From Beijerinckiaceae bacterium (GTDB lineage: Bacteria; Pseudomonadota; Alphaproteobacteria; Rhizobiales; Beijerinckiaceae), in the NCBI GenBank assembly GCA_027533425.1, contig JAPZUD010000001.1, forward strand, positions 248,001 to 312,000: a DNA stretch of 64,000 bases, in the 5' to 3' direction. Of the stretch, positions 10,816-49,431 are shown piece by piece. Under the pieces are notes generated by a model, which did no database searches, had not been told where the DNA came from, and worked only from the letters and a program-made list of their open reading frames with translations. Numbering within the stretch: the first letter of the stretch is position 1; each line of letters begins with the position of its first letter. The position numbers and the translations under genes are program-made.

Positions 10816-10841
10816 CCGGGGCCATGCAACGTGAGCCCCGG
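10816..10841 (+). other. Stem-loop in the leader of the ApnO-like gene
   Basis: CCGGGGC at 10816-10822 pairs perfectly with GCCCCGG at 10835-10841 around a 12-base loop. It ends 13 bases before the GGGAGG ribosome site at 10855-10860. It may affect translation or mRNA stability; the rest of the 258-base divergent gap shows no clear promoter box. Confidence 0.4.
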
Positions 10842-10866
10842 TACCGGAAAGACGGGAGGATTTTCA

Positions 10867-11697
10867 ATGACAACGCGCATCGCTCTTTTCGGGGCAGGGG
10901 GCAAGATGGGCGTCCGCCTGTCGACCAATCTTTTAGGCTCGCCATTCGAGGTCCGCCATGTCGAGCCCAGCCCGGCCGGGCAGCAACGGCTCCGGGAGGC
11001 GCTCGGCATCGAGTGCGTGCCGGTCGAGCAGGCCATTGACGGCGCCGAGGTCGTGATCCTCGCCGTCCCCGACACCCTGATCGGCCGGGTGGCGCGGGAG
11101 ATCACGCCCCGTCTCCGCCCGGGCACGATGGTGATCGTGCTCGACGCCGCCGCGCCCTATGCCGGCCATCTGCCGGAAAACCCCGATCTCACCTATTTCG
11201 TGACCCATCCCTGCCATCCCGTGATCTTCGATGCGGCCGTGCACGGGCCCGGCAAGCCGGATTATTTCGGGGGGGTCAGCGCCCCGCAATCGATTGTCTG
11301 CGCACTGATGCAGGGCCCGGAAGAGGCCTATGCCCTCGGCGAGGCCGTGGCCCGGACCATCTACAAGCCGATCGTGAAATCCTACCGCGTCACCGTCGAG
11401 CAGATGGCGTTGCTGGAGCCTGGCCTGTCGGAAACCGTCTGCGCCACCCTGCTCGATGTCATGCGCGAGGCGATGGACGAGGTGGTCCGGCGCGGTGTGC
11501 CGCCGGATTGCGCACGGGATTTCCTCCTCGGCCATATGACGATCCTCGCTGCCGTGACCTTCCGGCAGATCGAGGGGCAGTTCTCCGATGCCTGCAACAA
11601 GGCGATCACCTTCGGCAAGCCGCGCCTGATGCGGGAGGACTGGCTGAAGGTTTTCGAGCAGGACGAGATCGCGGAGAGCATCCGCCGCATCACCTGA
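10867..11697 (+). CDS. NAD-dependent dehydrogenase, D-apionate oxidoisomerase-like
   Basis: 276 residues. The N-terminus IALFGAGGKMGVRL is a dinucleotide-binding fold (GxGGxMG), followed by VVILAVPD and the pattern VTHPCHP near residue 116. The C-terminal half (LLEPGLSETVCATLLDVM, GVPPDCARDFLLGHM, DACNKAITFG) matches the phosphogluconate-dehydrogenase-C-like family to which ApnO belongs. ApnO turns D-apionate into 3-oxo-isoapionate. The start at 10867 follows GGGAGG seven bases upstream. The enzymes for the next steps (a kinase and a RuBisCO-like protein) are present, but about 35 kb away at 45.8-48.4 kb. The immediate neighbours are unrelated, so the substrate is inferred from family resemblance, not operon context. 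Confidence 0.72.
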   Translation: MTTRIALFGAGGKMGVRLSTNLLGSPFEVRHVEPSPAGQQRLREALGIECVPVEQAIDGAEVVILAVPDTLIGRVAREITPRLRPGTMVIVLDAAAPYAGHLPENPDLTYFVTHPCHPVIFDAAVHGPGKPDYFGGVSAPQSIVCALMQGPEEAYALGEAVARTIYKPIVKSYRVTVEQMALLEPGLSETVCATLLDVMREAMDEVVRRGVPPDCARDFLLGHMTILAAVTFRQIEGQFSDACNKAITFGKPRLMREDWLKVFEQDEIAESIRRIT

Positions 11698-14740: not shown

Positions 14741-14753
14741 ACTCCAGCAGGGA

Positions 14754-14779
14754 GGCCCGGTCGCATCGGCGGCCGGGTC
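14754..14779 (+). other. Stem-loop between receptor and permease genes
   Basis: GGCCCGG (14754-14760) can pair with CCGGGTC (14773-14779), including one G-U pair, around a 12-base loop. It ends four bases before the permease ATG. Such structures between receptor and permease genes often protect the receptor mRNA and lower permease translation. Confidence 0.35.
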
Positions 14780-14783
14780 CATC

Positions 14784-15908
14784 ATGATGGCGGCTGACCC
14801 GGTTTCCCTTCCCACTGCGCCGACAACCGCGATTTCGCGCACCCGGATGTTGGTCTGGCTCGGCTATGCCGAGGCGTTGGCCATCCCGCTGCTGGCGCTG
14901 CTGGTCTCGGCCTTGCTGTTCTCGGTTTTCCTGCTCGCGCTCGGGAAATCGCCGGTCCAGTTCTTCCAGCTGGTCTGGCTCGGCGGGTTCGGGACTGCGT
15001 TCTCGTGGTCGAACACCCTGCTGCGCGCTGCCCCGTTGATGCTCACGGCCCTGGCCGTGGCCATCCCGGCCCGCCTCGGCATGACGATGATCGGTGCGGA
15101 AGGCGCGCTGGTCCTCGGCGGGTTCTCGGCGGCGGCGATTGCCTTGCCGATGATCGGCGTCGTCAATCCGTGGGCCATGAATGCGGCGATGATGCTCGCG
15201 GCGATCACGATCGGCGGGCTCTGGACCGGTCTTGCCGGCAGCCTGCGGCGGTATCGCGGCGTCAACGAGACGATCTCGACGCTCCTGCTTTCCTATATTG
15301 CCATCGCGATCATGAATTTCTTCGTCGAGGGCGCCCTGCGCGACCCGGCCGATCCGAACAAGCCCTCGACCCGGAACATCGGCGCCGAGGCGATGATCGG
15401 CAAGATCCCCGGCATCGATGTCCATTGGGGTCTCGCCTTCGCCATCGGCGCCTGCATCCTCCTTTATATCCTGATGCTGCGCACCACGTTCGGCTTTGCC
15501 TGCGCCGTGGCCGGGGGCAACCCGCGTGCCGCACTCGCGCAGGGCCTGCCGGTCGGACGGCTGGTGGTCATCGCCTCGATGATTGCCGGCGCCTGTGCCG
15601 GTCTTGCCGGATTCTTCGAGGTTGCCGCCGTGCATGGCAAGGCCAATGCCTCGCTGGCTGCCGGCTATGGCTTTACCGGCATTCTCGTTGCCTTCCTCGC
15701 CCGTCACCATCCGTTGGCCATCATCCCGGTCGCGATCCTCTTCGGCGGAATCGCGGCAGCCGGTGGCATCATCCAGCGCCGGATGGGCCTGCCCGATGCC
15801 TCCGTCCTGCTGCTGCAGGGGCTGTGCTTCGTCGTGCTGCTGGCCAGCGAGACCCTCTATGGCCGGCTGCGCCTGTTCAACCCCGCCTTGCGAACGGAGC
15901 GCACCTGA
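14784..15908 (+). CDS. ABC transporter permease (BMP/nucleoside type), subunit 1
   Basis: 374 residues with about nine to ten hydrophobic segments beginning near residue 25. The sequence RYRGVNETISTLLLSYIAIAI is the coupling motif of the BPD_transp_2 permeases that pair with BMP receptors (NupP/YufP-like). It starts 43 bases after the receptor stop and ends with a TGATG overlap with the second permease. Two ATGs in a row (14784, 14787) could start it. Predicted to form the inner-membrane channel with the next gene product. Confidence 0.87.
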   Translation: MMAADPVSLPTAPTTAISRTRMLVWLGYAEALAIPLLALLVSALLFSVFLLALGKSPVQFFQLVWLGGFGTAFSWSNTLLRAAPLMLTALAVAIPARLGMTMIGAEGALVLGGFSAAAIALPMIGVVNPWAMNAAMMLAAITIGGLWTGLAGSLRRYRGVNETISTLLLSYIAIAIMNFFVEGALRDPADPNKPSTRNIGAEAMIGKIPGIDVHWGLAFAIGACILLYILMLRTTFGFACAVAGGNPRAALAQGLPVGRLVVIASMIAGACAGLAGFFEVAAVHGKANASLAAGYGFTGILVAFLARHHPLAIIPVAILFGGIAAAGGIIQRRMGLPDASVLLLQGLCFVVLLASETLYGRLRLFNPALRTERT

Positions 15909-37775: not shown

Positions 37776-38540
37776 TCAGCCCCGCAGCCTCTTGACGAGG
37801 CCGAGCGTCGCATTGCGGATGAACACGGCATCGGTGGCGAAGCTGATGAAATCCACGCCCTCCGCCAGGCGGCGCCGGAACTCGTCCTCGTTGCCGGTGA
37901 GATAGCCGGCCGGCTTGCCCATCGCCTTCAGTCGCCGGAACCCGTCATCGATCGCCGCCTGCACGTCCGGATGCTGCGGATTGCCGATATGCCCCATCGA
38001 GGCAGCGAGATCCGATGGGCCAATAAAGACCGCATCGACGCCATCGACCGCCGCGATGGCCTCGATCTGCGCCAATGCGCCGGCGCTCTCGATCTGCACG
38101 ATCACGCAGAGTTCGGCCTCCGCCGCCGCGAAATAGCCCGGTGTCAGCCCGTAATTCGCAGCCCGCGAGGCGCCGGAGACGCCGCGAACGCCCTTCGGCG
38201 GGAAGCGGGTATGGGCCACCGCGGCGCGGGCTTCCTCGGCATTCTCGACATAAGGGATCAGCAGCGTCTGCGCGCCCTGGTCGAGCAGCCGCTTGATGGT
38301 GACCATGTCATTCCAGGCCGGCCGGACCAGCGCCGGCAGGCCGGCCCCTCCGATCGCGCGGAGATGGTCGATCACATCCGGCAATTCGATCGGCGAATGT
38401 TCGGTATCGACGAGCACCCAGTCGAAGCCGCAGGCCGCCAGCATCTCGGTCAGGGCGGGCGAGCCGAAGGTCGCGAAAAAGCCGATCTGCTGCTGCCGCC
38501 CGAGGCGCTGCTTGAAAAGGTTGCGGGGATGCTCGGTCAT
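37776..38540 (-). CDS. HpcH/HpaI-family class II aldolase
   Basis: 254 residues. VLVDTEHSPIELPD near 43 carries the catalytic His, LIPYVENAEEARAAV lies near 93, QIESAGALAQIEAI near 148 has the metal-binding Glu and VFIGPSDLAASMG near 171 the second metal Asp. This is the fold of 2-keto-3-deoxy sugar-acid and 4-hydroxy-2-oxoacid aldolases, which release pyruvate and an aldehyde using a divalent metal. It sits between IclR and the kinase in the acid-sugar operon. Because PdxA2 alone already yields a triose phosphate, the aldolase may serve a second branch or another substrate. Confidence 0.86.
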   Translation of the reverse strand: MTEHPRNLFKQRLGRQQQIGFFATFGSPALTEMLAACGFDWVLVDTEHSPIELPDVIDHLRAIGGAGLPALVRPAWNDMVTIKRLLDQGAQTLLIPYVENAEEARAAVAHTRFPPKGVRGVSGASRAANYGLTPGYFAAAEAELCVIVQIESAGALAQIEAIAAVDGVDAVFIGPSDLAASMGHIGNPQHPDVQAAIDDGFRRLKAMGKPAGYLTGNEDEFRRRLAEGVDFISFATDAVFIRNATLGLVKRLRG

Positions 38541-38571
38541 GACCTGTTCCGTTCCTGCGGGTTCCGGCGCC

Positions 38572-39390
38572 TCAGCGCGCGATCGAGAGCGTGTTGAAGC
38601 TGAGCGTGATCGCGCGGGTCAGCTCTCCGGCGACGCGAAGCACCTCGGGCACGGCCCGCGCGGCGAAGGCCTCCATGGAATCCCGCTCGGCATGGATCGT
38701 CAGGCTGACGCCGGCGACGGGGTTGCCATCGGTATCGGTAATCGCCGCCGCCACCGTGCGGAGGCCATAGGCATTCTCGCCGTCGGACAGCGCATAACCG
38801 CGGGCCCGGACCTCGGCGAGGCGGGCGAGGATGGCGTCAAGATCGACCAATGTCCGCTCCGACAGGCGTACCCGGTTGGATTGTTCGAGGATCTCGCGCT
38901 GCCGGGCCACCGGCAGGCAGGCCAGCAGCGCATGGCCGAGCGCGGCCCCGTAAGCGCCGGTCCGGCTGCCGGCCCGGCGGTCAAGGTTGAGGCGCGGCAA
39001 TTCCACCTGGGCCCGCTCGACATAGACGACATCCGGCCCATCGAGCATGCCGAGCGAGGCGGCATCGGCGATGGCGGGCACGACCTCCTGCAGGAGCGGC
39101 CGCGCCAGCATCTTGAGATCGGCGCGGGCGAGGGGCGTATAGCCCAGCTCGAGGCATTTCAGCGTCATCCGGTAGCGGCGGCTGCGCGGCACGGCGGCGA
39201 GATAGCCGAGATGGCAGAGCGTATGGACCAGCCGGAACGAGGTGCCGCGATCGAGCTGCGCCCGTTGCGCGATTTCCGAGATGGTCAGTTCGGGCAGCCG
39301 GGCATCGAAGGCCTTCAGCACCGCGAAGGCCTTGACCACGGATTGCACGAAGTTCTTGGGGTTTTCGTCAGTCGCCTTGTCGTCGCGCAT
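38572..39390 (-). CDS. IclR-family transcriptional regulator
   Basis: 272 residues. The N-terminal winged helix (about 15-75: VVKAFAVLKAFDARLPELTISEIAQRAQLDRGTSFRLVHTL) is the IclR DNA-binding domain; the C-terminal effector domain has the typical GDGP-like LLDGPDVVYVERAQ and YGAALGHALLACLP pattern near 165. It lies inside the operon between aldolase and SDR, so it likely controls the operon, perhaps from the palindrome at 41190 in front of the first gene. The effector is unknown. Confidence 0.87.
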   Translation of the reverse strand: MRDDKATDENPKNFVQSVVKAFAVLKAFDARLPELTISEIAQRAQLDRGTSFRLVHTLCHLGYLAAVPRSRRYRMTLKCLELGYTPLARADLKMLARPLLQEVVPAIADAASLGMLDGPDVVYVERAQVELPRLNLDRRAGSRTGAYGAALGHALLACLPVARQREILEQSNRVRLSERTLVDLDAILARLAEVRARGYALSDGENAYGLRTVAAAITDTDGNPVAGVSLTIHAERDSMEAFAARAVPEVLRVAGELTRAITLSFNTLSIAR

Positions 39391-39414
39391 GGTCGGGTCC
39401 GTTGCCTGTCCTTC

Positions 39415-40101
39415 TCAGAGCGAGGAGCCGCCGCAGATCGTCAGGACCTGCCCGGTTATCGCCCCGGCCTCCCGCGAGAGCAGGAACGCCACCGCCGCCG
39501 CCACTTCCGACGGCTCGATCAGCCGGCCGATCGGCGGGACTTTCACCGCGATGGCCGCGCGGGCGGGGTCCTGAAGCATCGGCGTCGCTGTCGCTGCCGG
39601 TGCCACGACATTCGCGGTGATGCCGCGCGGCGCGAGCTCGATTGCCCAGGACCGCACCATGCCGACAAGGGCGGCCTTGGTCGCCGCATACTGGCTGCGG
39701 CCTGCCGCGCCATTGGCCGTGCGGCTGCCGATCAGCACCAGGCGGCCACCATCACCCATGGTCGGAACGAGAATATTCGCGAGATCCTCCGCCGCGGCGA
39801 CATGGACCTGCCACATCGCCGCCCGATCCTCGGGATCGAGCGTGCCGAGTGGCCCGCCCCGCAACAGGCCGGCCGCGTGGACGAGGGCATCCACGCTGCC
39901 GAGCCCGCCCAGGGCCCGCTGCCGCTCCGCCGGATCGGCGAGATCGCAGGCCCGGCCGGAAAAGGCGGGATGGCCGATCCCCGCCGGCCGCCGGGAGAGG
40001 CCGGTCACGCGCCAGCCTTCCGCCAGCAGGCGGTGGACGATTGCAGCCCCGATCCCGGAACTCGCGCCCGTCACGAGGGCATGGCGCTGGCGGTCGGGCA
40101 T
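39415..40101 (-). CDS. Short-chain dehydrogenase/reductase
   Basis: 228 residues. HALVTGASSGIGAAIVHRL (TGxxxGIG, about 7-20), a VDALVHAAGLL stretch in place of NNAG, the catalytic Tyr in SQYAATKAALVGMVRSW (YxxxK near 140) and IGRLIEPSEVAAAVAFLL at the end are classical SDR features. Its ATG overlaps the receptor stop (TGATG). It may oxidise the sugar acid or its precursor before phosphorylation. Substrate not readable. Confidence 0.83.
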   Translation of the reverse strand: MPDRQRHALVTGASSGIGAAIVHRLLAEGWRVTGLSRRPAGIGHPAFSGRACDLADPAERQRALGGLGSVDALVHAAGLLRGGPLGTLDPEDRAAMWQVHVAAAEDLANILVPTMGDGGRLVLIGSRTANGAAGRSQYAATKAALVGMVRSWAIELAPRGITANVVAPAATATPMLQDPARAAIAVKVPPIGRLIEPSEVAAAVAFLLSREAGAITGQVLTICGGSSL

Positions 40102-41090
40102 CAGCTGGGCTGGTAGTTGATCAGCTTCAGCAACTCGCCGGCCCGCGCCACCTCGGATTTGATGAAGGCGCGCGTCTCCTCGATGCTCTCGGCCACCGGC
40201 TCGATCAGGGTGGCGCGCAGCCTGTCGGCCGTGGCGGGATCCTTCATCGTGGCCTGGATCATCGCATTGACCTTCTCCTGGATGGCCCGGGGCGTGCCCT
40301 TCGGTGCCCAGATCCCGTACCAGGAATTGAACACGAAATCGGGAACCCCGCCTTCGGAGATGGTCGGCACTTCCGGCGCCAGCACGGACCGCGTCTTCGA
40401 GGCAATGCCGAGCGCCTTGATCGTGCCGCCCTTGGCCTGCGGGAGCAGGGCGAAAGACGGGTCGATCAGCAATTGCACCGCGCCGCTCATCAGGTCCTGC
40501 AGGGCCGGCACCGTGCCGCGATAGGGCACGAGATTGATGTTGAGCCCGGCGCGGCGGAGGAAATCGACCGTCGCGAGATGCCCGGCCGAACCGAGCGACG
40601 AAATGGCGAAGGAGAATTCGCCCGGCTTTTCCTTCGCCGATTTCAGCAGCTCGGCCAGGGTATTCTCGGGCCGCTGCTTCGACATGACCAGCACCAGCGG
40701 CGCCACCGCAGTGCGCGAGATCGCTTCGAGATCGACCTCCGGGTCGAACGTGGCAGCCTTGAGCACTTTCGGCATGACCGCCGTGTTGAAGGCGCTGGCG
40801 AGGAAGGTATAGCCGTCCGGCTCGGCGCGGATCACCTCGTTCGTGCCGATCAGGCCGGCCCCGCCGACCTTGTTCTCGGTGATCGAGGTCGCGCCCATCG
40901 TCTCCTGCAGCCGCTGGGACACGAGCCGGCCCAGCGCGTCATTCGCCGCGCCGGGCGGCCAGGGAACGATCACCTTGATCGTCTTGCTCTTGTCAGGCCA
41001 GGCAGCCTGGGCATGCGCCGCGGGCAGGCCACCGAAGGCGGCCATGCCGCCAGCCGCGCCCAACGCGGTCAGGAATTCGCGCCGTTTCAT
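40101..41090 (-). CDS. Tripartite tricarboxylate (TctC/Bug) family receptor
   Basis: 329 residues. The start MKRREFLTALGAAGGMAAFG is a twin-arginine-like signal peptide. ADKSK.IKVIVPWPPGAANDALGRLVSQ and GGAGLIGTNEV are the hallmarks of Bug-type receptors; KPGEFSFAISSLGSAGHL and LVPYRGTVPALQDLMSGAVQLLID follow in the usual places. It would bind a carboxylated ligand in the periplasm. There are no TctA/TctB membrane genes nearby, so it is an orphan receptor that must use a transporter elsewhere or act as a sensor. It is the first gene of the minus-strand acid-sugar operon. Confidence 0.88.
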   Translation of the reverse strand: MKRREFLTALGAAGGMAAFGGLPAAHAQAAWPDKSKTIKVIVPWPPGAANDALGRLVSQRLQETMGATSITENKVGGAGLIGTNEVIRAEPDGYTFLASAFNTAVMPKVLKAATFDPEVDLEAISRTAVAPLVLVMSKQRPENTLAELLKSAKEKPGEFSFAISSLGSAGHLATVDFLRRAGLNINLVPYRGTVPALQDLMSGAVQLLIDPSFALLPQAKGGTIKALGIASKTRSVLAPEVPTISEGGVPDFVFNSWYGIWAPKGTPRAIQEKVNAMIQATMKDPATADRLRATLIEPVAESIEETRAFIKSEVARAGELLKLINYQPS

Positions 41091-41189
41091 CCTCGTCGTT
41101 CCTCTCCGGGTCTCGGCCGAATACGGGTTCGGCTCTCTCTTGGCAGGAACCGCTCCGGCCAGCCGGATGGCGGTTGAAATTGATCGGAA

Positions 41190-41207
41190 TGCGAACATTA
41201 ATTCGCA
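41190..41207 (-). promoter_or_regulatory. Palindrome in the promoter region of the acid-sugar operon
   Basis: TGCGAA-CATTAA-TTCGCA is a perfect inverted repeat with 6-base arms, 100-117 bases upstream of the receptor start. A second symmetric patch, ATTCGCGCGGAAT (41215-41227), adjoins it. Either the operon's IclR or the LacI protein encoded next to it could bind here. Confidence 0.5.
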
Positions 41208-41262
41208 TGATGAATATTCGCGCGGAATCCCCGGCGCGTCAAGCCGAGGCAGGTCGGGCAGT

Positions 41263-42312
41263 TCAGCTGCGTGGCAGGTTCTCGCGGGTGACGAGTTCAA
41301 TCACCAGCGGTTCGATTTCCGTCTCCGGCGGGCGGCCCTCGCGCAGATTGGCGAAGATCCGGATGGCATTCGACACGGTCTTCTCGTGGCTCTGGTTGAG
41401 GACGAAATCCATCGTGCCTTCCTCCAGCATCAGCCGGGCATCGGGCGAGAGCGCATGCCCGACGAAAACGATGCGCCGGTGCTGGCTCATCTCGCGGATG
41501 GCGCGGGCAATGCCGCTCGGGGCTCCGCCGATATTGTAGATCCCGACAAGGTCCGGGTGGCGCAACAGCAATTCGCGGGCGGCACGGTAATTCTCGGCCG
41601 CATCGTCATGGCCCTCGCGGAGTTCAACAACCGAAAGGCTCGGAAACCGTTCCGCGATCAGCGCGCGAAAACCGAGATCGCGGTCTCGATGGGCACGATA
41701 GAGCCGCGATCCGGCAATCAGCCCGATCTGCCCGGTTTCGGCTTTCGCCATCTGCCCGATGAGCAGCGCCGCTGTCCGGCCGGCGGCGAGATTGTCGAGG
41801 CCGAGATAGGCGGCGCGATCCGAATGCGGCAGGTCGGAGACGAGGGTCAGGACCGGCTTCCCGGCCAGGATCGTGCGGGCTGCCGCCGCGCGCACGGCAT
41901 CATGGTCGAGCGCCATGAAGGCAAGCCCGTCCGAGCGGCGGGCATGGTGCAGGATCGCCTCGGCCAGGGCATCGGCATTGAAGCTCTCGACGAAGACGCA
42001 GCGGCAGGTGACGTTGTAGGTGCGATACTGGTCATGCGGGCGGGCGATATACGCACCGAGCATGCGCAGATAGCGGTTCGTGCCGGAAGGCAGGATGAAG
42101 GTCAGCCGCATCGGCTTCGGCCGCAGGGCCGAAAAGAGATCCGCCTCGGGCAGGTAGCGCAGCTCCAGCGCCGCCGCGACGACACGCTCGGCCGTGGCGC
42201 TGCGGACATGTGCGCGCCGGTTGAGTACCCGATCGACAGTGGCCGGCGACACGCCGGCGAGGGCCGCGACATCGCGGGCCTGCGGGCGTTTCGGGGGCAA
42301 GGCTGCACTCAT
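41263..42312 (-). CDS. LacI-family transcriptional repressor
   Basis: 349 residues. RPQARDVAALAGVSPATVDRVLNRRAHV is the N-terminal HTH with hinge; the periplasmic-binding-like effector domain runs from about 68 (MRLTFILPSGTNRYL) with GLDNLAAGRTAALLIG, and GIYNIGGAPSGIARAI near 255 as ligand-pocket strands. It is divergent from the TRAP operon (107 bases apart) and lies upstream of the tricarboxylate-receptor operon, so it may control either. The first ATG is at 42312; a TTG one codon earlier is possible. The gap contains the near-repeat TTTTGATGATTTTTGATGAG around its start. Confidence 0.9.
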   Translation of the reverse strand: MSAALPPKRPQARDVAALAGVSPATVDRVLNRRAHVRSATAERVVAAALELRYLPEADLFSALRPKPMRLTFILPSGTNRYLRMLGAYIARPHDQYRTYNVTCRCVFVESFNADALAEAILHHARRSDGLAFMALDHDAVRAAAARTILAGKPVLTLVSDLPHSDRAAYLGLDNLAAGRTAALLIGQMAKAETGQIGLIAGSRLYRAHRDRDLGFRALIAERFPSLSVVELREGHDDAAENYRAARELLLRHPDLVGIYNIGGAPSGIARAIREMSQHRRIVFVGHALSPDARLMLEEGTMDFVLNQSHEKTVSNAIRIFANLREGRPPETEIEPLVIELVTRENLPRS

Positions 42313-42419
42313 CAAAAATCATCAAAACATAGGCGTTGAAACAAGGCCAGCCCCGCCGCACCCTTCCCGCAGTTCAGTCCCGGCATCAGACCGGGTCAAA
42401 CGACGCTCCGGAGGAAACC

Positions 42420-43439
42420 ATGACCGAATTCACGTCACTCACGCGGGCCCGCTTCCTGCGTTTGGCTGCCGGCGCCTCGCTGGCCGGCCTCGGCGGGTCG
42501 CTCGCCCGTGCCCAGGCTCCAGTCGAACTGCGCTACGGCCATATGAACCCGCCCGCCAGCGCCGCCGGGATCCAGGCGCAGATGCTGGCCGACGAGATTG
42601 CGAAGAACAGCGCCGGCGGCGTCAAGGTCACGGTCTACCCGTCCTCGCAACTCGGCAAGCTGCAGGAGCTGGCGGAAGCTGTCTCCACCGGCAGCATCGC
42701 GCTCTCCCACAACACGGCCGCAGGGATCGGCTCGCTCTACGAGCCCTTCGGTGCGCTGGATACACCCTATCTCTACAAGGACTTCGCCCATCTCATGCGG
42801 GTGATGGATGTCAACGGCCCGGTGCTCAAGACGCTCAACGAGGGGTTGATCAAGGCCGCCGGCGTGCGGGTGCTCTACGCCTATTACTTCGGCACGCGGC
42901 ACCTCACCGCCAACAAGGCGATCCGCGAGCCGGCTGATCTCGCCGGCATGAAGATCCGCGCCATCCCGTTCCCGATCTACAACACGGCGGTGCAGGGCCT
43001 CGGCGCCGTGCCGATCCCGGTGGACTGGTCGGAAGTGCCGACCGCCCTCGCGACGGGCACGGTCAACGGGCAGGAGAACCCGGCCAATGTGATCCTCTCC
43101 TCGAAGCTCTACGAGACGCAGTCGCATATGATGCTGACCGGGCATATCATGAATGCCCAGCTGATCGTCATGAACGAGCGGGTCTGGCAGCGCCTCACGC
43201 CCGCCCAGCGCGACGCGATCTCGGCGGCCGCAGCCAAGGTGTCGAAAGAGGCCTCGGAAATGGTCCGCAAGACCGAATCCGAGGAGATCGAGAAGCTCAA
43301 GGGCCTCAAAATGAACGTGATCGGCCCGGCCGAAGGCCTCAAGGTCGAGGCGTTCCGCGCTTCGGTCGGCAAGCTGGTGCAAGAGCGGTTCGGCGCCAAA
43401 TTTGCCGATCTCTACAAGCAGGTCGCGGCTCTGGGCTGA
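42420..43439 (+). CDS. dctP: TRAP transporter solute receptor (DctP family)
   Basis: 339 residues. A signal peptide with RARFLRLAAGASLAGLGG precedes VELRYGHMNPPASAAGIQAQMLADEI, the opening of the TRAP DctP fold. GMKIRAIPFPIYNTAVQGLGAVPIPVDWSEVPTAL near 180-210 holds the conserved Arg that binds a ligand carboxylate. GGAGGA eight bases upstream sets the ATG at 42420. The ligand is likely a sugar acid in view of the RuBisCO-like protein and kinase that follow. The operon reads dctP-dctQ-dctM-VOC-RLP-kinase. Confidence 0.9.
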   Translation: MTEFTSLTRARFLRLAAGASLAGLGGSLARAQAPVELRYGHMNPPASAAGIQAQMLADEIAKNSAGGVKVTVYPSSQLGKLQELAEAVSTGSIALSHNTAAGIGSLYEPFGALDTPYLYKDFAHLMRVMDVNGPVLKTLNEGLIKAAGVRVLYAYYFGTRHLTANKAIREPADLAGMKIRAIPFPIYNTAVQGLGAVPIPVDWSEVPTALATGTVNGQENPANVILSSKLYETQSHMMLTGHIMNAQLIVMNERVWQRLTPAQRDAISAAAAKVSKEASEMVRKTESEEIEKLKGLKMNVIGPAEGLKVEAFRASVGKLVQERFGAKFADLYKQVAALG

Positions 43440-43460
43440 GCCCGGCCGGGGGAGTTCACG

Positions 43461-43967
43461 ATGATCGGGTTTCTGGAACGCTCCGCAGGCCTTGTCGAGC
43501 GCGTGGCACGGATCTGCGAGCGTCTGGCCATCGGCGCGCTGTTCGTGATGACCGCGCTGGTGACCGCACAGATCATCGGGCGCGAGATCCTCAGCCTCGG
43601 TCTGCCGGCCGTCGAGGAACTCGCGCGCTGGTCGGGCCTGTGCCTTGTTTATCTCGCGGTGCCGCTGCTCTTCCTCCAAGGCCGGCATGTCAGCGTGGAC
43701 ATGGTTCTTGTGAAGCTGCGCGGCCCCCTGCGCAAGGCTGTCGATATCGCGCTTGAATCGCTGACCGTGGCCTTCACGCTCGCTTTCCTTGTAGGCGGTT
43801 GGTTCTTCATGCAGCGCGCCGGGAAATTCTCCACCCCCGCGCTCGGCATGCCGAACCTCATCTTCTATGCCCCGGTCCTGTTCGGGATGGCGCTCAGCAT
43901 GCTGGCTGGGCTGGTGCGTGTCTACCGCACAATCCTCGCGCCGGCGGGGGAGGCGCGGCCATGCTGA
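43461..43967 (+). CDS. dctQ: TRAP transporter small membrane subunit (DctQ)
   Basis: 168 residues with four hydrophobic helices (about 19-40, 55-77, 93-112, 130-150). EILSLGLPAVEELARWSGLCLVYLAV is the typical DctQ motif with the conserved glutamates and arginine. It bridges the receptor with the large membrane subunit. GGGGGAG lies eight bases before the ATG. Its stop overlaps the dctM start as ATGCTGA. Confidence 0.9.
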   Translation: MIGFLERSAGLVERVARICERLAIGALFVMTALVTAQIIGREILSLGLPAVEELARWSGLCLVYLAVPLLFLQGRHVSVDMVLVKLRGPLRKAVDIALESLTVAFTLAFLVGGWFFMQRAGKFSTPALGMPNLIFYAPVLFGMALSMLAGLVRVYRTILAPAGEARPC

Positions 43968-45241
43968 GCCTGACCGTCCTGTGCCTGTTCCTGGTGCTCA
44001 CCCTGATTGGCGCCCCGATTGCGGTGGCCATGGGTTTCTCGGCGGCCTTCGTGATCTGGTGGGGTGATTTCCCGCTCACCGTGATCGCGCAGCGCTCGGT
44101 CAATGCGCTGGATTCCGCGCCGCTTCTTGCGGTGCCGCTCTTCATTTTCGCGGCCGCCCTGTTCAACGAGAGCGGGGTGACGAACCATCTCTTCGCGCTG
44201 GTCCGGCTGGTCGTCGGCCGCATCCGCGGTGGCCTCGGCCACGTTACGGTGCTGACAAACCTCATCTTTTCCGGCATTTCCGGCGCGGCCCTCGCGGATA
44301 TCGGCGCGCTGGGCGGCACCCAGATCCGCCTGATGCGCGAGCAGGGTTACAAGGATGAATTCGCGGCCGGCATCACCATGGCGGCGGCGACGATCGGGCC
44401 GATCTTTCCGCCCTCGATTCCGCTCATCATCTTCGCCACCGCCGCCGAGGTCTCGGCGGTGAAGCTGCTGCTGGCGGGCGTCGTGCCGGCGCTGATCATT
44501 GCAGCCATCCTGATGATCCAGATCGCCATCATGGCCCGCATGCAGAATCTCCCGAAGGATACGATCACCTTTTCCTGGGGCTCCCTGTTCCGGACGGGGC
44601 TCATCGCTTTGCCGGCCTTGATGGCGCCGGTCATCCTGATCGGCGGGCTGGTCAGCGGCATTTTCGGGCCGACCGAAGTCGCGGCGGTCTGTGTCGTCTA
44701 TGCGCTGTTCCTCGGCACCGTCGTCTATCGCGAGCTGACCATCGAGAAGACCATCCGCGCCGCGCGGGAAACCGTCCATTCCACGGCCGGCGTGCTGTTC
44801 ATTGTCGCCTCGGCCGCGCTCTTCGCCTGGGTTTTCACCATCGACCGGGTGCCGACCCTGGCCTCCGAATTCCTGCTCGGCCTCTCCACCAATCCGCTGG
44901 TATTGCTGCTCATCGTCAACGGCCTGCTGCTCGTGGTCGGCATGATCCTCGAATCCATTGCAGCCATCCTGATCCTGGCGCCGATCCTCACGCCGGCCCT
45001 CCTGAAGGCGGGTGTCGATCCCGTCCATCTCGGGCTGGTCGTCGTGCTCAACCTGATGATCGGCCTGCTCACCCCGCCGGTCGGGATGAGCCTCTACATG
45101 GTCTCGATCGTCGGCAAGATGCCGCTCCAGCGGGTGATTGCCGGGGCCGTGCCCTTCCTGATCCCGCTGGTCATCGCGCTGCTCGTCGTCACCTTCTGGC
45201 CGGCCGCCGTCACCTTCCTTCCCAATCTTATCCTGAAATGA
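43961..45241 (+). CDS. dctM: TRAP transporter large membrane subunit (DctM)
   Basis: 426 residues with about 12 hydrophobic helices. LTLIGAPIAVAMGFSAA, GLGHVTVLTNLIFSGISGAALADIGALG and FAAGITMAAATIGPIFPPSIPLIIFA are the hallmark DctM (SiaM-like) regions that form the sodium-driven transport path. The ATG at 43961 overlaps the dctQ gene by seven bases. A downstream gene for a VOC protein starts 13 bases after its stop. Confidence 0.93.
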   Translation: MLSLTVLCLFLVLTLIGAPIAVAMGFSAAFVIWWGDFPLTVIAQRSVNALDSAPLLAVPLFIFAAALFNESGVTNHLFALVRLVVGRIRGGLGHVTVLTNLIFSGISGAALADIGALGGTQIRLMREQGYKDEFAAGITMAAATIGPIFPPSIPLIIFATAAEVSAVKLLLAGVVPALIIAAILMIQIAIMARMQNLPKDTITFSWGSLFRTGLIALPALMAPVILIGGLVSGIFGPTEVAAVCVVYALFLGTVVYRELTIEKTIRAARETVHSTAGVLFIVASAALFAWVFTIDRVPTLASEFLLGLSTNPLVLLLIVNGLLLVVGMILESIAAILILAPILTPALLKAGVDPVHLGLVVVLNLMIGLLTPPVGMSLYMVSIVGKMPLQRVIAGAVPFLIPLVIALLVVTFWPAAVTFLPNLILK

Positions 45242-45254
45242 CGAGGACCATCCC

Positions 45255-45794
45255 ATGAGCCGCTTTTTCGGCCAAGTGCGTCAGGCCGGCTATGTCGTGC
45301 CGGATATCGAGGAGGCGATGCTCTACTGGGCCAACGTGCTCGGCGTCGGGCCGTGGTTCTATGCCGAGCGGGTGCCGGTGGTGAATTTCCGGAGCCGTGG
45401 CGAGCCGTCCTTTCCCGAAACCTCGGTGGCGCTTGCCAATTCCGGCCCCCTCCAGATCGAGTTGATCCAGCCGCGCAACACGGCGCCAAGCATGTATCAG
45501 GACTTCCTGAAGGCTGGTCATACCGGCCTCCAGCATCTGGCCTACTGGACCGAGACCTATGATGCCGATCTCGCCCGCCTGCTGGCGCAGGGATTCACGG
45601 TTGGCATGTCCGGCGAGGTCGGTGAGAATGGTCGCTTCTGCTATTTCGAGACCGGGACCCATCCGGGCGCGGTCATCGAACTGTCCGAGGTGAAGGGGCC
45701 CAAGGGAAAGATGTTCACGCTGATCCGCGAGGCGGCCGAAGGCTGGGATGGCACGGACCCGATCCGTCCCTTCCCGGATCTGAAGAGCCTGTGA
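45255..45794 (+). CDS. VOC-superfamily metal-dependent protein of the TRAP/RLP operon
   Basis: 179 residues. Two beta-alpha-beta-beta-beta modules: the first opens with QVRQAGYVVPDIEEAMLYWANVLGVGPWFYAE, the second with GHTGLQHLAYWTETYDADL and closes with YFETGTHPGAVIELSEV, where the usual metal ligands His and Glu appear. The family includes glyalase-like isomerases, dioxygenases and epimerases. It stands between dctM and the RuBisCO-like gene with gaps of 13 bases, so it is surely co-expressed. The reaction is unknown; isomerisation of a keto-sugar acid is plausible. Confidence 0.8.
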   Translation: MSRFFGQVRQAGYVVPDIEEAMLYWANVLGVGPWFYAERVPVVNFRSRGEPSFPETSVALANSGPLQIELIQPRNTAPSMYQDFLKAGHTGLQHLAYWTETYDADLARLLAQGFTVGMSGEVGENGRFCYFETGTHPGAVIELSEVKGPKGKMFTLIREAAEGWDGTDPIRPFPDLKSL

Positions 45795-45807
45795 CATTGC
45801 CGGTGCC

Positions 45808-47070
45808 ATGACCGAGCGTTTTACGGCTGACTATCTCATCGAGACTGCCGGCGATCCCGCCCGCGCTGCAGAGACCATGGCGGGGGAGCAATCCTCCGGC
45901 ACGTTCGTGGCTGTTCCGGGCGAGACGGCAGAGCTCAAGGCGCGTTTCGCGGCCCGGGTCGAGAGCCTGGAGCTTCTGGATACAGTGGACAGCCCGTCGC
46001 TGCCCGGCGCAGCCCTGCCGAAAGCCGGGGCGCCGAAGCGCTGGCAGCAGGCCCGGGTGCGCCTGTCCTGGCCTCTGGACGTGATCGGGCCCTCCCTGCC
46101 CAACCTCGTCGCCACCATTGCCGGCAATCTCTTTGAGCTGAAGGATTTTTCCGGCCTCCGGCTGATGGATGTCACCCTACCACCGGCTTTCGCCCTGCGC
46201 TATGCCGGGCCGCGCTTCGGCGTTCCGGGCACGCGCCAGCTGGCGGGCGTGAGCGGCCGTCCGCTGATCGGCACCATCATCAAGCCGAGTGTCGGCCTTG
46301 ATCCGGACCAGACCGCCGGTTTTGTCGATGAGCTGGTCACCGGCGGGATCGACTTCATCAAGGATGACGAGCTGCAATCCGATGGCCCGGCCTGTCCGTT
46401 CGAGATGCGGGTGGACCGGGTGATGGCGGTCATCGAGCGCCATGCCGACCGGACGGGACGGCGTGCCATGTTTGCCTTCAACCTGACGGGTGAATTCGAC
46501 GAGATGCGTCGGCGGCATGACCATGTGCTCGCCCGGGGCGGCACCTGCATCATGGCGAGCCTCAATTCGATCGGCCTCGCGGGCATGATCGAACTCGGCC
46601 GGCACAGCCAGCTGCCGATCCATGGCCATCGCAATGGCTGGGGGGCGCTCACCCGCGCACCGATGCTCGGCTGGGCCTTTCCCGCCTGGTCCAAACTCTG
46701 GCGGCTTGCTGGAGTAGATCATTTGCATGTCAATGGGTTGCAGAACAAATTTACAGAGTCGGATGAAAGCGTTATCGCCTCCGCCCGCTCGCTGGGAGAA
46801 CCGCTTTTCTCCTCCCATCCGATGACGGCCATGCCGGTCTTCTCGTCGGGGCAGACCGTCCGGCAGGCCGCCGGCACCTATGCCGCACTCGGCTCCGCAG
46901 ACCTGATCCACGCGGCGGGCGGCGGTATCCTTGCCCATCCCGGCGGTATCGCTGCCGGGGTGGAGGCCTTCCGCGCGGCCTGGGATGCGGCCATGGCCGG
47001 CATGCCCCTCGAGCGCAAGGCCGAGATCAACCCGGCTCTGGCAGCGGCCCTGCGCGCCTATTCCGGCTGA
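45808..47070 (+). CDS. RuBisCO-like protein (form IV), probable OiaX/OiaT-type enzyme
   Basis: 420 residues. The lysine pair of the fold is present: Lys159 in IGTIIKPSVGL and Lys185 in FIKDDELQSDGP (the carbamate lysine with metal ligands Asp187 and Glu188). His272 and His274 (IHGHRNG) are the base/phosphate histidines and GGGILAHPGG near 371 the phosphate site. Loop 6 lacks the GKxEG lysine needed for carboxylation (here HVNGLQNKF), so this is not a true RuBisCO. RLPs of this group act on 3-oxo-isoapionate 4-phosphate as decarboxylase or as transcarboxylase/hydrolase; a kinase of the right family follows three bases later. This substrate fits but is not proven. Confidence 0.88.
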   Translation: MTERFTADYLIETAGDPARAAETMAGEQSSGTFVAVPGETAELKARFAARVESLELLDTVDSPSLPGAALPKAGAPKRWQQARVRLSWPLDVIGPSLPNLVATIAGNLFELKDFSGLRLMDVTLPPAFALRYAGPRFGVPGTRQLAGVSGRPLIGTIIKPSVGLDPDQTAGFVDELVTGGIDFIKDDELQSDGPACPFEMRVDRVMAVIERHADRTGRRAMFAFNLTGEFDEMRRRHDHVLARGGTCIMASLNSIGLAGMIELGRHSQLPIHGHRNGWGALTRAPMLGWAFPAWSKLWRLAGVDHLHVNGLQNKFTESDESVIASARSLGEPLFSSHPMTAMPVFSSGQTVRQAAGTYAALGSADLIHAAGGGILAHPGGIAAGVEAFRAAWDAAMAGMPLERKAEINPALAAALRAYSG

Positions 47071-47073
47071 GCC

Positions 47074-48429
47074 ATGGCGCCGGTCCTGACCTTCTATGGC
47101 GATGATTTCACCGGCTCCTCCGCCGTGATGGAGGTGCTGGCCTTTGCCGGCCTGCCGTCGATCATGTTTCTCGACATCCCCTCCGAGGCGATGCTGGCCC
47201 GGCTCGACGGCATCGCCGCGATCGGCATCGCCGGCATTTCCCGCTCCAAGCCCCCGGACTGGATGGATGCCGAATTGCCGCGCGTCTTTGCCGCCCTTGC
47301 GCGGCTCGGGGCGCCGATCCTCCATTACAAGACCTGCTCGACTTTCGACTCCGCGCCGCATCTCGGCTCGATCGGCCGGGCCATCGAACTCGGTATGGCG
47401 GCGACGGGGGTGACCTTCGTGCCCCTGGTTGTCGGCGCGCCGGCCATCGGCCGCTACCAGATGTTCGGCAATCTCTTCGCGGCGCTCGATGGCATCGGCT
47501 ACCGGCTGGACCGCCACCCGGTCATGGCGCGCCATCCGGCAACGCCCATGCACGAGGCCGATCTCTGCCGCCATCTCGAGGGGCAGACGGCCTTTCCCTC
47601 GGCGGTGGTCGACTGGCGCACGCTGCTCGCGGGGCAGGGGGCGGAAGCGCTCCGCGGCGCCCGCCAGCAGGGTGCGTGCATCATCGCGCTGGACCTGTTC
47701 GACCAGGCAACCCTTGAGCGGGTTGGCGAGATCCTGTGGCAGGAAGCCGGCCAGGCGCCGCTTTATGCCGTCGGCAGCCAGGGCGTCGAATATGCGCTGG
47801 TCGCGCATTTCCGGCGGATCGGGCGGCTGCCGCAGGCGCGGCCACCGGCCGGGTTCGGCCCGGCCGAGCCGCTGCTCGTCGTGTCCGGGTCCTGTTCGGA
47901 AACCACCGCCCGCCAGATCGCCGCAGCCGGCGGGGCGGGGTTCCGTCTGCTGCTGCTGGAGGCCAGCCTCGCGGTTGACCCCGCGAGCTGGTCAGCCGAG
48001 TTGGCGCGCGTCGAGCAGGCCATGCTCGAGACGCTGGCCGCCGGCACCAGCCTTGTCGTGGCCACTGCACGCGGCCCGGCCGATCCGGCGATTGGGCGCT
48101 TCCGCGAACGGCTCGAAACGGCGGGCGTGGCGCCGGGCCCGGTCCATGACCGGATCGGGCAGGGGCTCGGCGGGCTGGTCCGGGCCGCACGGCTGAAGGC
48201 CGGCCTCGGCCGTGCCATCTTTGCCGGAGGCGATACGTCCGGCCATGCCATGCTGGCCCTCGGCGCCGAAGCGCTTGAGCCGCTGGCGCCTTTGGCTGCC
48301 GGCGCGCCGCTCCTGCGCGTGAGGTCGATGGATCCGGCCATCGAGGGGCTGGAAGTTGCGCTCAAGGGCGGCCAGATGGGCGACGAACCTGTCTTTGTCC
48401 GCGCCGCGCGCGGCATCGCCCAGAACTGA
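47074..48429 (+). CDS. Four-carbon acid sugar kinase (DUF1537), probable 3-oxo-isoapionate kinase type
   Basis: 451 residues. The N-terminal FYGDDFTGSSAVMEVL (Asp10-Asp11) is the acid-binding motif and IFAGGDTSGHAMLALG near 395 plus LKGGQMGDEPVF near 430 form the ATP site. It follows the RuBisCO-like gene by three bases. A DUF1537 kinase next to an RLP is the arrangement reported for OiaK, which phosphorylates 3-oxo-isoapionate at C4 before the RLP acts. It is longer than the kinase at 36654 and shares only the family motifs, so the two probably have different substrates. Confidence 0.86.
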   Translation: MAPVLTFYGDDFTGSSAVMEVLAFAGLPSIMFLDIPSEAMLARLDGIAAIGIAGISRSKPPDWMDAELPRVFAALARLGAPILHYKTCSTFDSAPHLGSIGRAIELGMAATGVTFVPLVVGAPAIGRYQMFGNLFAALDGIGYRLDRHPVMARHPATPMHEADLCRHLEGQTAFPSAVVDWRTLLAGQGAEALRGARQQGACIIALDLFDQATLERVGEILWQEAGQAPLYAVGSQGVEYALVAHFRRIGRLPQARPPAGFGPAEPLLVVSGSCSETTARQIAAAGGAGFRLLLLEASLAVDPASWSAELARVEQAMLETLAAGTSLVVATARGPADPAIGRFRERLETAGVAPGPVHDRIGQGLGGLVRAARLKAGLGRAIFAGGDTSGHAMLALGAEALEPLAPLAAGAPLLRVRSMDPAIEGLEVALKGGQMGDEPVFVRAARGIAQN

Positions 48430-48434
48430 CAGCC

Positions 48435-49271
48435 TCAGCTGCGCATCGTTTCGGTCTGTCCGCCATCGACAGGCAGCGCCACGCCGGTGATGAAGCGCGA
48501 CTCGTCGGAAGCGAGGAACAGGGCCGCAGCCGCAATGTCATAGGCCGTGCCCATCTTGCCCATCGGCACGGACTGGTTGCGCTTGGCAATGACTTCCTCG
48601 ACCGAGCCGAAGGAGCCGGCGATCTGCTTGTAGACCAGCGGCGTGTTCATCATCCCGGGGAGGATCGCATTGGCGCGGATGTTCTGCGCGGCGTGATGCA
48701 GCGCAATGGCCTTGGTGGCCTGGATCACGGCGGCCTTGGCAGCGGAATAGATGAAATAGGGATAGCCGGTCCAGCGGATCCCGGCGATCGAGGCGATGTT
48801 GACGAAGACGCCATGGCCTTGCTCGAGAAAGCGCGGCAGCATCACTTTCGCGCTGCGCCAGACCGGGCCGAGATTGAGGTCGATCCCGCGCTGGAAATCA
48901 TCCTCGCCCAGTTCATGCGCGCCGCCGGGAACCACCATCCCGACATTGTTGTGCACGACATCGATGCGCCCGAACCGCGCGACTGTCGCGGTCACGGCGT
49001 CTTCGATCGAGTCCAGCCGGGTCACGTCCGCGGCAAGCGCAATGGCCTCGCCGCCTTCCGCCGCGATCAGCCCGACGGTTTCTTCCGCCGCCTCGGGCTG
49101 GATGTCGATGCAGGCGACGCGTGCGCCTTCTCGGGCATACAGCACAGCCGCCGCCTTGCCATTGCCCCAGCCGGGGCCGGAGGAGCCGGCGCCGAAGACG
49201 ATCACCGTTTTTCCGGCCATGCGGGTGCCGGCGCGATACGGCGGCATCGGGTTCGGGGGAATATGGGTCAT
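48435..49271 (-). CDS. Short-chain dehydrogenase/reductase, divergent from IclR
   Basis: 278 residues. TVIVFGAGSSGPGWGNGKAAAVLYAREGARV is an SDR glycine motif with an unusual insertion (GAGSSGPGWGNG in place of TGGxxGIG); VVHNNVGMVVPG replaces NNAG; the active site tyrosine lies in PYFIYSAAKAAVIQAT (YxxxK). The ATG at 49271 is the first after the promoter region. It is convergent with the kinase gene (five bases between the stops) but divergent from the IclR gene, with two copies of one operator between them, so it belongs to that regulon. Confidence 0.83.
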   Translation of the reverse strand: MTHIPPNPMPPYRAGTRMAGKTVIVFGAGSSGPGWGNGKAAAVLYAREGARVACIDIQPEAAEETVGLIAAEGGEAIALAADVTRLDSIEDAVTATVARFGRIDVVHNNVGMVVPGGAHELGEDDFQRGIDLNLGPVWRSAKVMLPRFLEQGHGVFVNIASIAGIRWTGYPYFIYSAAKAAVIQATKAIALHHAAQNIRANAILPGMMNTPLVYKQIAGSFGSVEEVIAKRNQSVPMGKMGTAYDIAAAALFLASDESRFITGVALPVDGGQTETMRS

Positions 49272-49336
49272 GGCGTGTCTCCCTCGCTCCCGGCCCGCCC
49301 GGTGCTCAAGAGGCCGGGGCAACAGGAGGGCCGAAG

Positions 49337-49351
49337 GTCCATGATATGGAC
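49337..49351. promoter_or_regulatory. IclR operator candidate, copy 1
   Basis: Perfect inverted repeat GTCCAT-GAT-ATGGAC on the SDR side of the divergent promoter region, 66 bases before the SDR start. The arms match copy 2 except for the first base. Confidence 0.6.
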
Positions 49352-49431
49352 TATGTTGGTGTAGATTTCGATTGTCTGACGTCACTGGCTGCAATAGCGT
49401 GCAAAGTCAACGACAATTGATCCAATAGACT

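Follow-up and report, generated by a model that had tools for sequence, protein, structure and literature searches.

Introduction

To our knowledge, RuBisCO-like proteins (RLPs) have been assigned only a handful of jobs. The closest described systems to the locus analysed here are the D-apiose/D-apionate gene clusters (ApsD, ApnL, ApnO, OiaK, OiaX), in which the RLP gene (OiaX) adjoins a DUF1537 kinase gene (OiaK). D-apiose supports growth of a strain with an apiose cluster (PMC11747546). An RLP of Ochrobactrum anthropi reportedly lies amid D-hamamelose genes and acts last in the degradation of this branched sugar to 3-phosphoglycerate and glycolate (PMC8914248, citing Kim et al. 2018). Here we analyse a 64,000-nucleotide (nt) stretch of DNA, hereafter the window, from a Beijerinckiaceae bacterium (assembly GCA_027533425.1, contig JAPZUD010000001.1, positions 248,001 to 312,000). 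Six plus-strand genes at window positions 42420-48429 encode a TRAP transporter (DctP, DctQ, DctM), a VOC-superfamily enzyme, an RLP and a DUF1537 kinase, next to a divergent LacI gene.

Like the apiose and apionate clusters, this locus has adjacent RLP and kinase genes; both proteins group with their counterparts from these clusters, and the window genome also encodes an ApnO homologue. In contrast to them, it has a TRAP carrier in place of the sugar ABC transporter and a LacI regulator where those clusters often have a GntR-type (NanR-like) one. Moreover, it adds a VOC gene, its ApnO gene lies elsewhere, ApnL was not found (one query, five genomes), and its enzymes score below the curated cut-offs. 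The window's own group consists of LacI-TRAP-VOC-RLP-kinase loci in Rhodobacterales, Azospirillum, Roseomonas, Bradyrhizobium and others, which share its gene order and VOC clade. No description of such a VOC-TRAP-RLP set was found in the open-access literature searched, most subscription papers being outside reach. The larger find is that the TRAP-VOC pair, often together with LacI, is a module that recurs in many bacteria, joined to two different downstream routes.

Results

Organization of the operon

The genes of the operon and its regulator, with their family matches, are as follows.

41263..42315, minus strand: LacI-family regulator with a sugar-binding-protein-like sensor domain (PF00356, 48.3 bits, cut-off 27; PF13407, 108.1 bits)
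42420..43439, plus strand: DctP, TRAP solute receptor (TIGR00787, 197.7 bits, cut-off 175.05)
43461..43967, plus strand: DctQ, TRAP small membrane subunit (PF04290, 83.0 bits, cut-off 28.3)
43961..45241, plus strand: DctM, TRAP large membrane subunit, with its ATG at 43961 (TIGR00786, 379.2 bits, cut-off 268.45)
45255..45794, plus strand: VOC-superfamily metalloenzyme, presumed isomerase or epimerase (PF13669, 84.1 bits, cut-off 27)
45808..47070, plus strand: RLP, OiaX-type (PF00016, 212.8 bits, cut-off 30.1; NF042437, 440.9 bits, below its cut-off of 700)
47074..48429, plus strand: DUF1537 four-carbon-acid-sugar kinase, OiaK-type (PF07005, 168.8 bits, cut-off 25; PF17042, 102.2 bits, cut-off 28.3)

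DctQ starts 21 nt after DctP and overlaps DctM by 7 nt; gaps of 13 nt separate DctM from VOC and VOC from the RLP gene, and the kinase gene follows after 3 nt. The LacI and DctP genes are 104 nt apart. The close packing of six plus-strand genes behind a divergent LacI, as given in a preliminary description of this DNA, is thus borne out by the open reading frame coordinates and the family cut-offs. The TRAP transporter is complete, with all three subunits above their curated cut-offs in domain scans. Since the identical gene order is annotated on plasmids of Roseivivax, Paracoccus and Sulfitobacter, it is not a matter of chance. A LacI homologue is divergent from the operon in all 28 VOC-RLP loci (window included), and a search of 33 intergenic stretches for a shared LacI operator found no common palindrome.

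Recurrence of the TRAP-VOC module

Searching 397 genomes of the order with the VOC sequence (1e-20) yielded 41 places in 39 genomes. Nine of them form an outgroup of more distant homologues in one genus, and at none of the nine are module genes present in the stretch. At the remaining 32 places (31 genomes) a TRAP receptor gene invariably adjoins the VOC gene. RLP and kinase genes stand beside it at 16 places, all with LacI; a PdxA-like dehydrogenase, an OiaK-like kinase and a DhnA-type aldolase stand beside it at 15, three of them with LacI; and one place has neither output. The PdxA set is complete in 13/15 cases, while one locus at a contig end lacks PdxA and one shows PdxA only. These loci resemble the window in VOC clade, TRAP receptor types and kinase family, and they differ from it in that the RLP is absent from the stretch and a LacI homologue went unseen in 12 of the 15 in this order sample. 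Loci with the VOC-TRAP genes and the PdxA/kinase/aldolase set, and with the RLP absent from the stretch, are L202-L209, L211, L212, L215, L217, L219 and L229. In the two examples scanned, PdxA exceeded the cut-off of TIGR00557 (313.4 and 314.4 bits, cut-off 290.35), followed by a D-threonate 4-phosphate dehydrogenase model below its cut-off; the kinase matched OiaK best (473, below cut-off) and the aldolase the DhnA/LsrF group, also below cut-offs. It is possible that the PdxA/kinase/aldolase set is an alternative route for the same solute.

A sample of 126 RLP rows with neighbourhoods was assembled from named genomes (the 80 best of 558 loci in one scan), plasmid searches (neighbourhoods for 10 of the 366 records of one search) and further genomes; in three cases, two loci are one and the same sequence taken from different collections. 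A VOC gene is present in 28 of these rows, counting the window; another 65 contain ApnO in the stretch, and the remaining 33 contain neither gene. The stretches end at about 10 kb and some are shorter, so that the absence of ApnO from a stretch is a local statement only; read in this way, ApnO occurs in 0/27 fetched VOC-RLP loci versus 65/98 RLP loci without VOC. In 23 of the 28 VOC-RLP loci, RLP and kinase belong to a separate clade, here called clade B (the pair of locus L231 is 50% and 36% identical to that of the window), whereas the window, the related genome G395 and three Bradyrhizobium-type loci have an OiaX-type pair instead. In five annotated plasmid clusters (Shinella, Rhizobium, Rhodobacteraceae, Paraburkholderia, Microvirga), a Gfo/Idh/MocA dehydrogenase (ApsD) occurs with an ApnL homologue and, in four of the five, also with an ApnO homologue; the three names are our own assignment, based on gene order and on the genes reportedly described by Carter et al. 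2018.

On plasmids, VOC matches of at least 59% identity occur in 19 records, and clade-B RLP matches of at least 59% (query L231) in 18, all of which are among the 19 and have the VOC and RLP matches adjacent to each other. The remaining record, from Azospirillum thermophilum, carries the PdxA set, with LacI present and a DeoR gene beside the kinase. Annotated neighbourhoods were viewed for eight of the 19 records. VOC relatives were also sought in viral contigs, where none of 40 pattern matches was one.

Phylogeny of the RLP, kinase and VOC sequences

The RLP tree, computed by a quick method, comprises the 126 RLPs and two Form I RuBisCOs as outgroup (128 rows); RLP matches of 370 residues or fewer and any second RLP of a locus were excluded, as were kinases with 380 or fewer matched residues or at a distance of over 3.5 kb from the RLP, and MtnW was judged by model scores only. 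Clade B (support 100) contains 23 rows, all VOC-linked. Most of them were collected via the VOC gene, which has to be borne in mind in reading this figure; clade-B loci reached via the RLP have VOC in 5/5 related genomes (L060, L063, L064, L067, L068) and in 18/18 plasmid records. The other five VOC-linked rows, i.e. the window with G395 and the three Bradyrhizobium-type loci, fall on the OiaX side. There the window RLP groups with RLPs that have ApnO, and in some cases ApsD/ApnL as well, as neighbours, and long branches separate it from the Form I RuBisCOs.

The idea that the VOC-linked RLPs are one family was rejected: an approximately unbiased (AU) test on 67 of the 128 tree rows (28 versus 39, the group being named after the first tree was seen) excludes a single clade of the 28 rows (p 9e-93), and at least three changes are required. 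As read from the trees, the VOC-linked RLPs comprise a clade of their own and, apart from it, OiaX-type RLPs that were paired with VOC on at least two separate occasions. The kinase tree gives the same picture and groups kinases of the PdxA-type loci as an additional 14-member clade on the OiaK side. The VOC module is joined to at least three kinase lineages. In the VOC tree there are at least seven output changes (the outgroup without module being counted as a state) and three transporter changes. We read this as a front end that has moved between back ends, which suggests that OiaK-type kinases use its product. The pairing of OiaX-type RLP and kinase genes with the VOC module arose at least twice, in the window genus and in the Bradyrhizobium-type loci, and points the same way. 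Gene linkage alone cannot prove that the module product is the substrate of these kinases. Another species of the window genus, G389 (locus L067), has the alternative version of the system, with a fused-permease-type TRAP receptor and a clade-B RLP and kinase.

The RuBisCO-like protein and the kinase

An alignment with three Form I RuBisCOs, mapped by script, revealed the carbamate lysine (K185) and the metal ligands D187 and E188 of the RLP, as had been stated before. The preliminary description was wrong, though, in reporting that the loop-6 carboxylation lysine is missing. K314 aligns with the loop-6 lysine of the GKLEG motif and is invariant in 16/16 aligned RLPs (window and 15 relatives), so loss of this lysine was rejected. 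In RuBisCO numbering (the loop-6 lysine being K334 of the spinach enzyme), the RLP has three of the four active-site lysines (positions K175, K201 and K334). Read by eye from the same alignment, with the residues checked, K159 occupies the K175 position and H274, R275 and H307 are also present, whereas S161 replaces K177 and W278 replaces H298. The closest solved structure is 3nwr (E 1e-119).

Among curated models, OiaX (NF042437) matches the RLP best. Its cut-off is also missed by the RLPs of the Shinella apiose plasmid cluster L152 (471.6 bits), which has ApsD, ApnL and ApnO homologues, of Cupriavidus necator N-1 (L156, 442.9) and of Xanthobacter (L149, 420.9); in fact none of 385 genomes of the class and none of eight RLPs scanned passed it, and this cut-off may be set too high. 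The identity of the window RLP to the RLPs of these ApnO-bearing loci is 61.5% (L156), 63.1% (L149) and 68.4% (L152). The kinase is nearer to OiaK (NF042436, 462.9 bits) than to the 3-oxo-tetronate kinase OxoTetrKin (149.4, cut-off 350) or the D-threonate kinase (64.8). Six further DUF1537 kinases were scanned, and only the one from C. necator N-1 passes the OiaK cut-off (769.4); the kinase of apiose cluster L152 stays below it (472.5). On these scores, RLP and kinase are filed as proven members of neither OiaX nor OiaK and are clearly nearest to these two families.

Related RLPs were also observed in other settings. Haloarchaeal plasmids (H22, H26, H33, H35, H36, H37, H44) carry RLPs that are 52-56% identical to the window RLP. 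On the Croceibacterium plasmid L155, the RLP and kinase genes are surrounded by genes for a GDSL esterase and glycoside hydrolases, and the RLPs of sphingomonads branch separately in the RLP tree; these are perhaps a polysaccharide-linked variant.

The VOC enzyme and the TRAP receptor

The residues Q10, E69, H94 and E142 are invariant in 37/37 aligned VOC sequences (window included). They are the ligand types of human glyoxalase I, an enediolate isomerase. Because the outgroup without module keeps them too, they indicate a metalloenzyme and no particular reaction. An NCBIfam scan of the VOC protein matched no family.

In DctP, R160, R180 and the QENP asparagine N220 are invariant in 28/28 aligned receptors of two types and also present in the solved receptors 4pdd and 4p9k. 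In TRAP receptors, R180 corresponds to the carboxylate-binding arginine and N220 to its partner. Since DctP keeps both, the solute is probably an acid. The AlphaFold model of DctP has a mean pLDDT of 88.9. The module occurs with two TRAP receptor types, the second being 23-28% identical to the window receptor, and each type is found with both the RLP and the PdxA output. For the window type, the nearest solved receptors are 4pdd and 4p9k, with modest scores (143 and 141 bits); two receptors of the fused-permease type match 4oan at about 1e-127. The structures 4pdd and 4p9k are reportedly of D-erythronate or pantoate receptors, and 4oan was reportedly modelled with (S)-2-acetolactate, which shares its carbon skeleton with 3-oxo-isoapionate.

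ApnO and the LacI-TRAP-VOC block within the genus

Two further features of the window bear on the route.

10831..11697, plus strand: homologue of ApnO (D-apionate oxidoisomerase), a lone gene flanked by those of a DbpA-type helicase and an AtzE-type amidohydrolase
41259..45807, no strand assigned: LacI-TRAP-VOC block, present in the window genome (G000) and G395, missing as a unit in the sister species G396 and G398

The product of 10831..11697 is 55% identical to the ApnO of Shinella L152, 70% to that of C. necator N-1 L156 and 72% to that of Xanthobacter L149. The latter two stand beside OiaK/OiaX-type genes, and in C. necator N-1 the OiaK is the one above the cut-off. A scan of curated models gave no ApnO match for this gene, which is therefore named by homology and by the gene order of the compared loci.

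In G396 and G398, homology to the window stops at 41258 and restarts at 45808, while G395 is continuous across; the missing block is exactly LacI through VOC. Both genomes keep the flanking genes and the RLP-kinase pair (91% RLP identity). ApnO follows the same pattern: G395 has it, and in G396 and G398 its two neighbours adjoin with ApnO cleanly absent. ApnO and the block are thus present or absent together in these four genomes of the genus. The GC content of the block (65.2%) is below that of its immediate flanks (69.1%) and close to the window mean (66.1%), and therefore says little.

Neighbouring genes

A minus-strand row at 37776-41300 encodes an HpcH/HpaI aldolase, an IclR regulator, an SDR dehydrogenase and a TctC-type receptor. 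It is conserved next to the RLP-kinase pair in 3/3 of the sister species examined, whether or not they have the LacI-TRAP-VOC block, and may belong to the same catabolic region as the operon. On the other side, an SDR dehydrogenase gene at 48435-49394 is convergent with the operon and 84-91% conserved in three sister species. In the Neorhizobium VOC-RLP operon (L233), an SDR dehydrogenase gene lies inside the operon, ahead of the TRAP genes. Farther away, an ABC permease at 14718-15908 has as its sole NCBIfam match at 1e-30 a putative vitamin B6 transporter permease (189.1 bits, cut-off 400).

Discussion

On balance, we favour the reading that a small branched sugar acid, probably D-apionate or a close relative, is imported by the TRAP carrier as a carbon source, under control of LacI, and degraded by an OiaK/OiaX-type ending. 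The carrier would import an acid, most likely D-apionate or a relative with the hydroxymethyl-branched butanoate skeleton. In the window genome, the separately placed ApnO would oxidise and rearrange it to 3-oxo-isoapionate, which the DUF1537 kinase would phosphorylate at C4; the RLP would then decarboxylate, or transcarboxylate and hydrolyse, the phosphorylated product to give small central metabolites. The VOC protein, as a four-ligand metalloenzyme, would act ahead of the kinase, with either the imported acid or the oxo form of it as substrate, and would probably be an isomerase or epimerase.

That RLP and kinase act on 3-oxo-isoapionate had been proposed beforehand. This assignment agrees with OiaX and OiaK being their best models and with their positions in the trees amid ApnO clusters. 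Several points weigh against it and against the reading as a whole. RLP and kinase fall short of the OiaX and OiaK cut-offs (441 and 463 versus 700 bits), ApnO lies about 30 kb from the operon, albeit in the same window, and the joint presence of ApnO and the block is one contrast among four genomes and not a statistical series. An ApnL homologue gave no match in 5/5 genomes, with one query and a positive control absent; therefore apiose itself may not be used. Finally, at a threshold of 1e-50, ApnO matches are absent from 15/31 module-VOC genomes and present in the other 16, and it follows that the module does not need ApnO everywhere.

The last point also qualifies the earlier proposal that TRAP carrier and VOC enzyme extend the apionate route. 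What stands is that they are a real, recurring addition; the genomes lacking an ApnO match and the 16/32 places with no RLP in the stretch do not fit it. VOC and ApnO are associated at the genome level (16/31 versus 50/366 genomes, odds ratio 6.7), which carries little weight as the genomes are related. For the window genome, extension of the apionate route is likely, yet not the whole story.

A different small hydroxy or oxo acid as the substrate appears unlikely to us, though it deserves the most attention among the alternatives. Candidates would be C4 acids, for example D-erythronate, and larger acids branched at C2, for example D-hamamelonate (2-carboxy-D-arabinitol), in which case kinase and RLP, or kinase, PdxA and aldolase, would use the 4- or 5-phosphate and ApnO would be unrelated. 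The Ochrobactrum RLP among hamamelose genes, as described by the citing paper, the PdxA-type set in place of the RLP at 15/32 module VOC places, the below-cut-off D-threonate 4-phosphate dehydrogenase model as second best for PdxA, and the reported D-erythronate or pantoate specificity of 4pdd and 4p9k, the nearest solved receptors, all speak for such an acid. However, RLP and kinase score and group with the apionate genes and not with the 3-oxo-tetronate or D-threonate kinases, within the genus ApnO is present or absent together with the LacI-TRAP-VOC block, and the modest similarity of the receptor to 4pdd and 4p9k makes any transfer of ligand weak. It is less probable still that the VOC enzyme, together with a separate dehydrogenase, replaces ApnO by a metal-dependent ketol-acid shift from 2-oxo-apionate to 3-oxo-isoapionate or by a 2-oxo/3-oxo tautomerisation, so that the module would make the kinase substrate unaided. 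Such a replacement could account for the lack of ApnO in the stretches of all 27 fetched VOC-RLP loci and for the 15 module-VOC genomes without an ApnO match; the SDR dehydrogenase of the Neorhizobium operon, the likeness of Q10-E69-H94-E142 to the glyoxalase I ligand set, and the link to at least three kinase lineages also fit. Yet in the window genus ApnO comes and goes with the VOC block, unlike what replacement predicts, and 16/31 module-VOC genomes have ApnO, its absence from stretches of about 10 kb being local only. We also know of no VOC enzyme with ketol-acid shift chemistry.

The RLP could, as a member of the same superfamily that keeps the carbamate and loop-6 lysines, be an enolase or methylthioribulose-phosphate isomerase of methionine salvage or a true CO2-fixing RuBisCO, but this is very improbable, and both roles were rejected on model scores and the RLP tree. 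The MtnW models TIGR03332 (135.2 bits, cut-off 513.6) and NF007095 (173.3, cut-off 409) and the RuBisCO models (125-230 bits versus cut-offs of 438-497; type III 229.5 versus 497.45) are far from their thresholds. Long branches lead to the two Form I RuBisCOs, S161 and W278 stand at the K177 and H298 positions, and the families found in the operon by domain scans include no methionine-salvage gene.

Beyond the probable degradation of an apionate-type acid in the window genome, we tentatively propose, with somewhat less confidence, a general role for LacI-TRAP-VOC as a self-contained module by which a branched oxo or hydroxy acid is taken up and isomerised. Its metal-dependent VOC isomerisation would yield the substrate of OiaK-type kinases, and the module would serve three back ends: a dedicated RLP clade, OiaX-type RLPs (recruited at least twice) and a RuBisCO-free route of PdxA, kinase and DhnA aldolase. 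For the RLP family, the comparison splits off a clade in which all 23 sampled members follow this VOC enzyme and TRAP carrier; no description of such a partnership was found in the literature searched. Because natural loci combine one front end with several back ends, there is a route to assigning function to both VOC and RLP. For the organisms, the module suggests that apionate-type acids may be taken up directly, without the sugar, via TRAP carriers.

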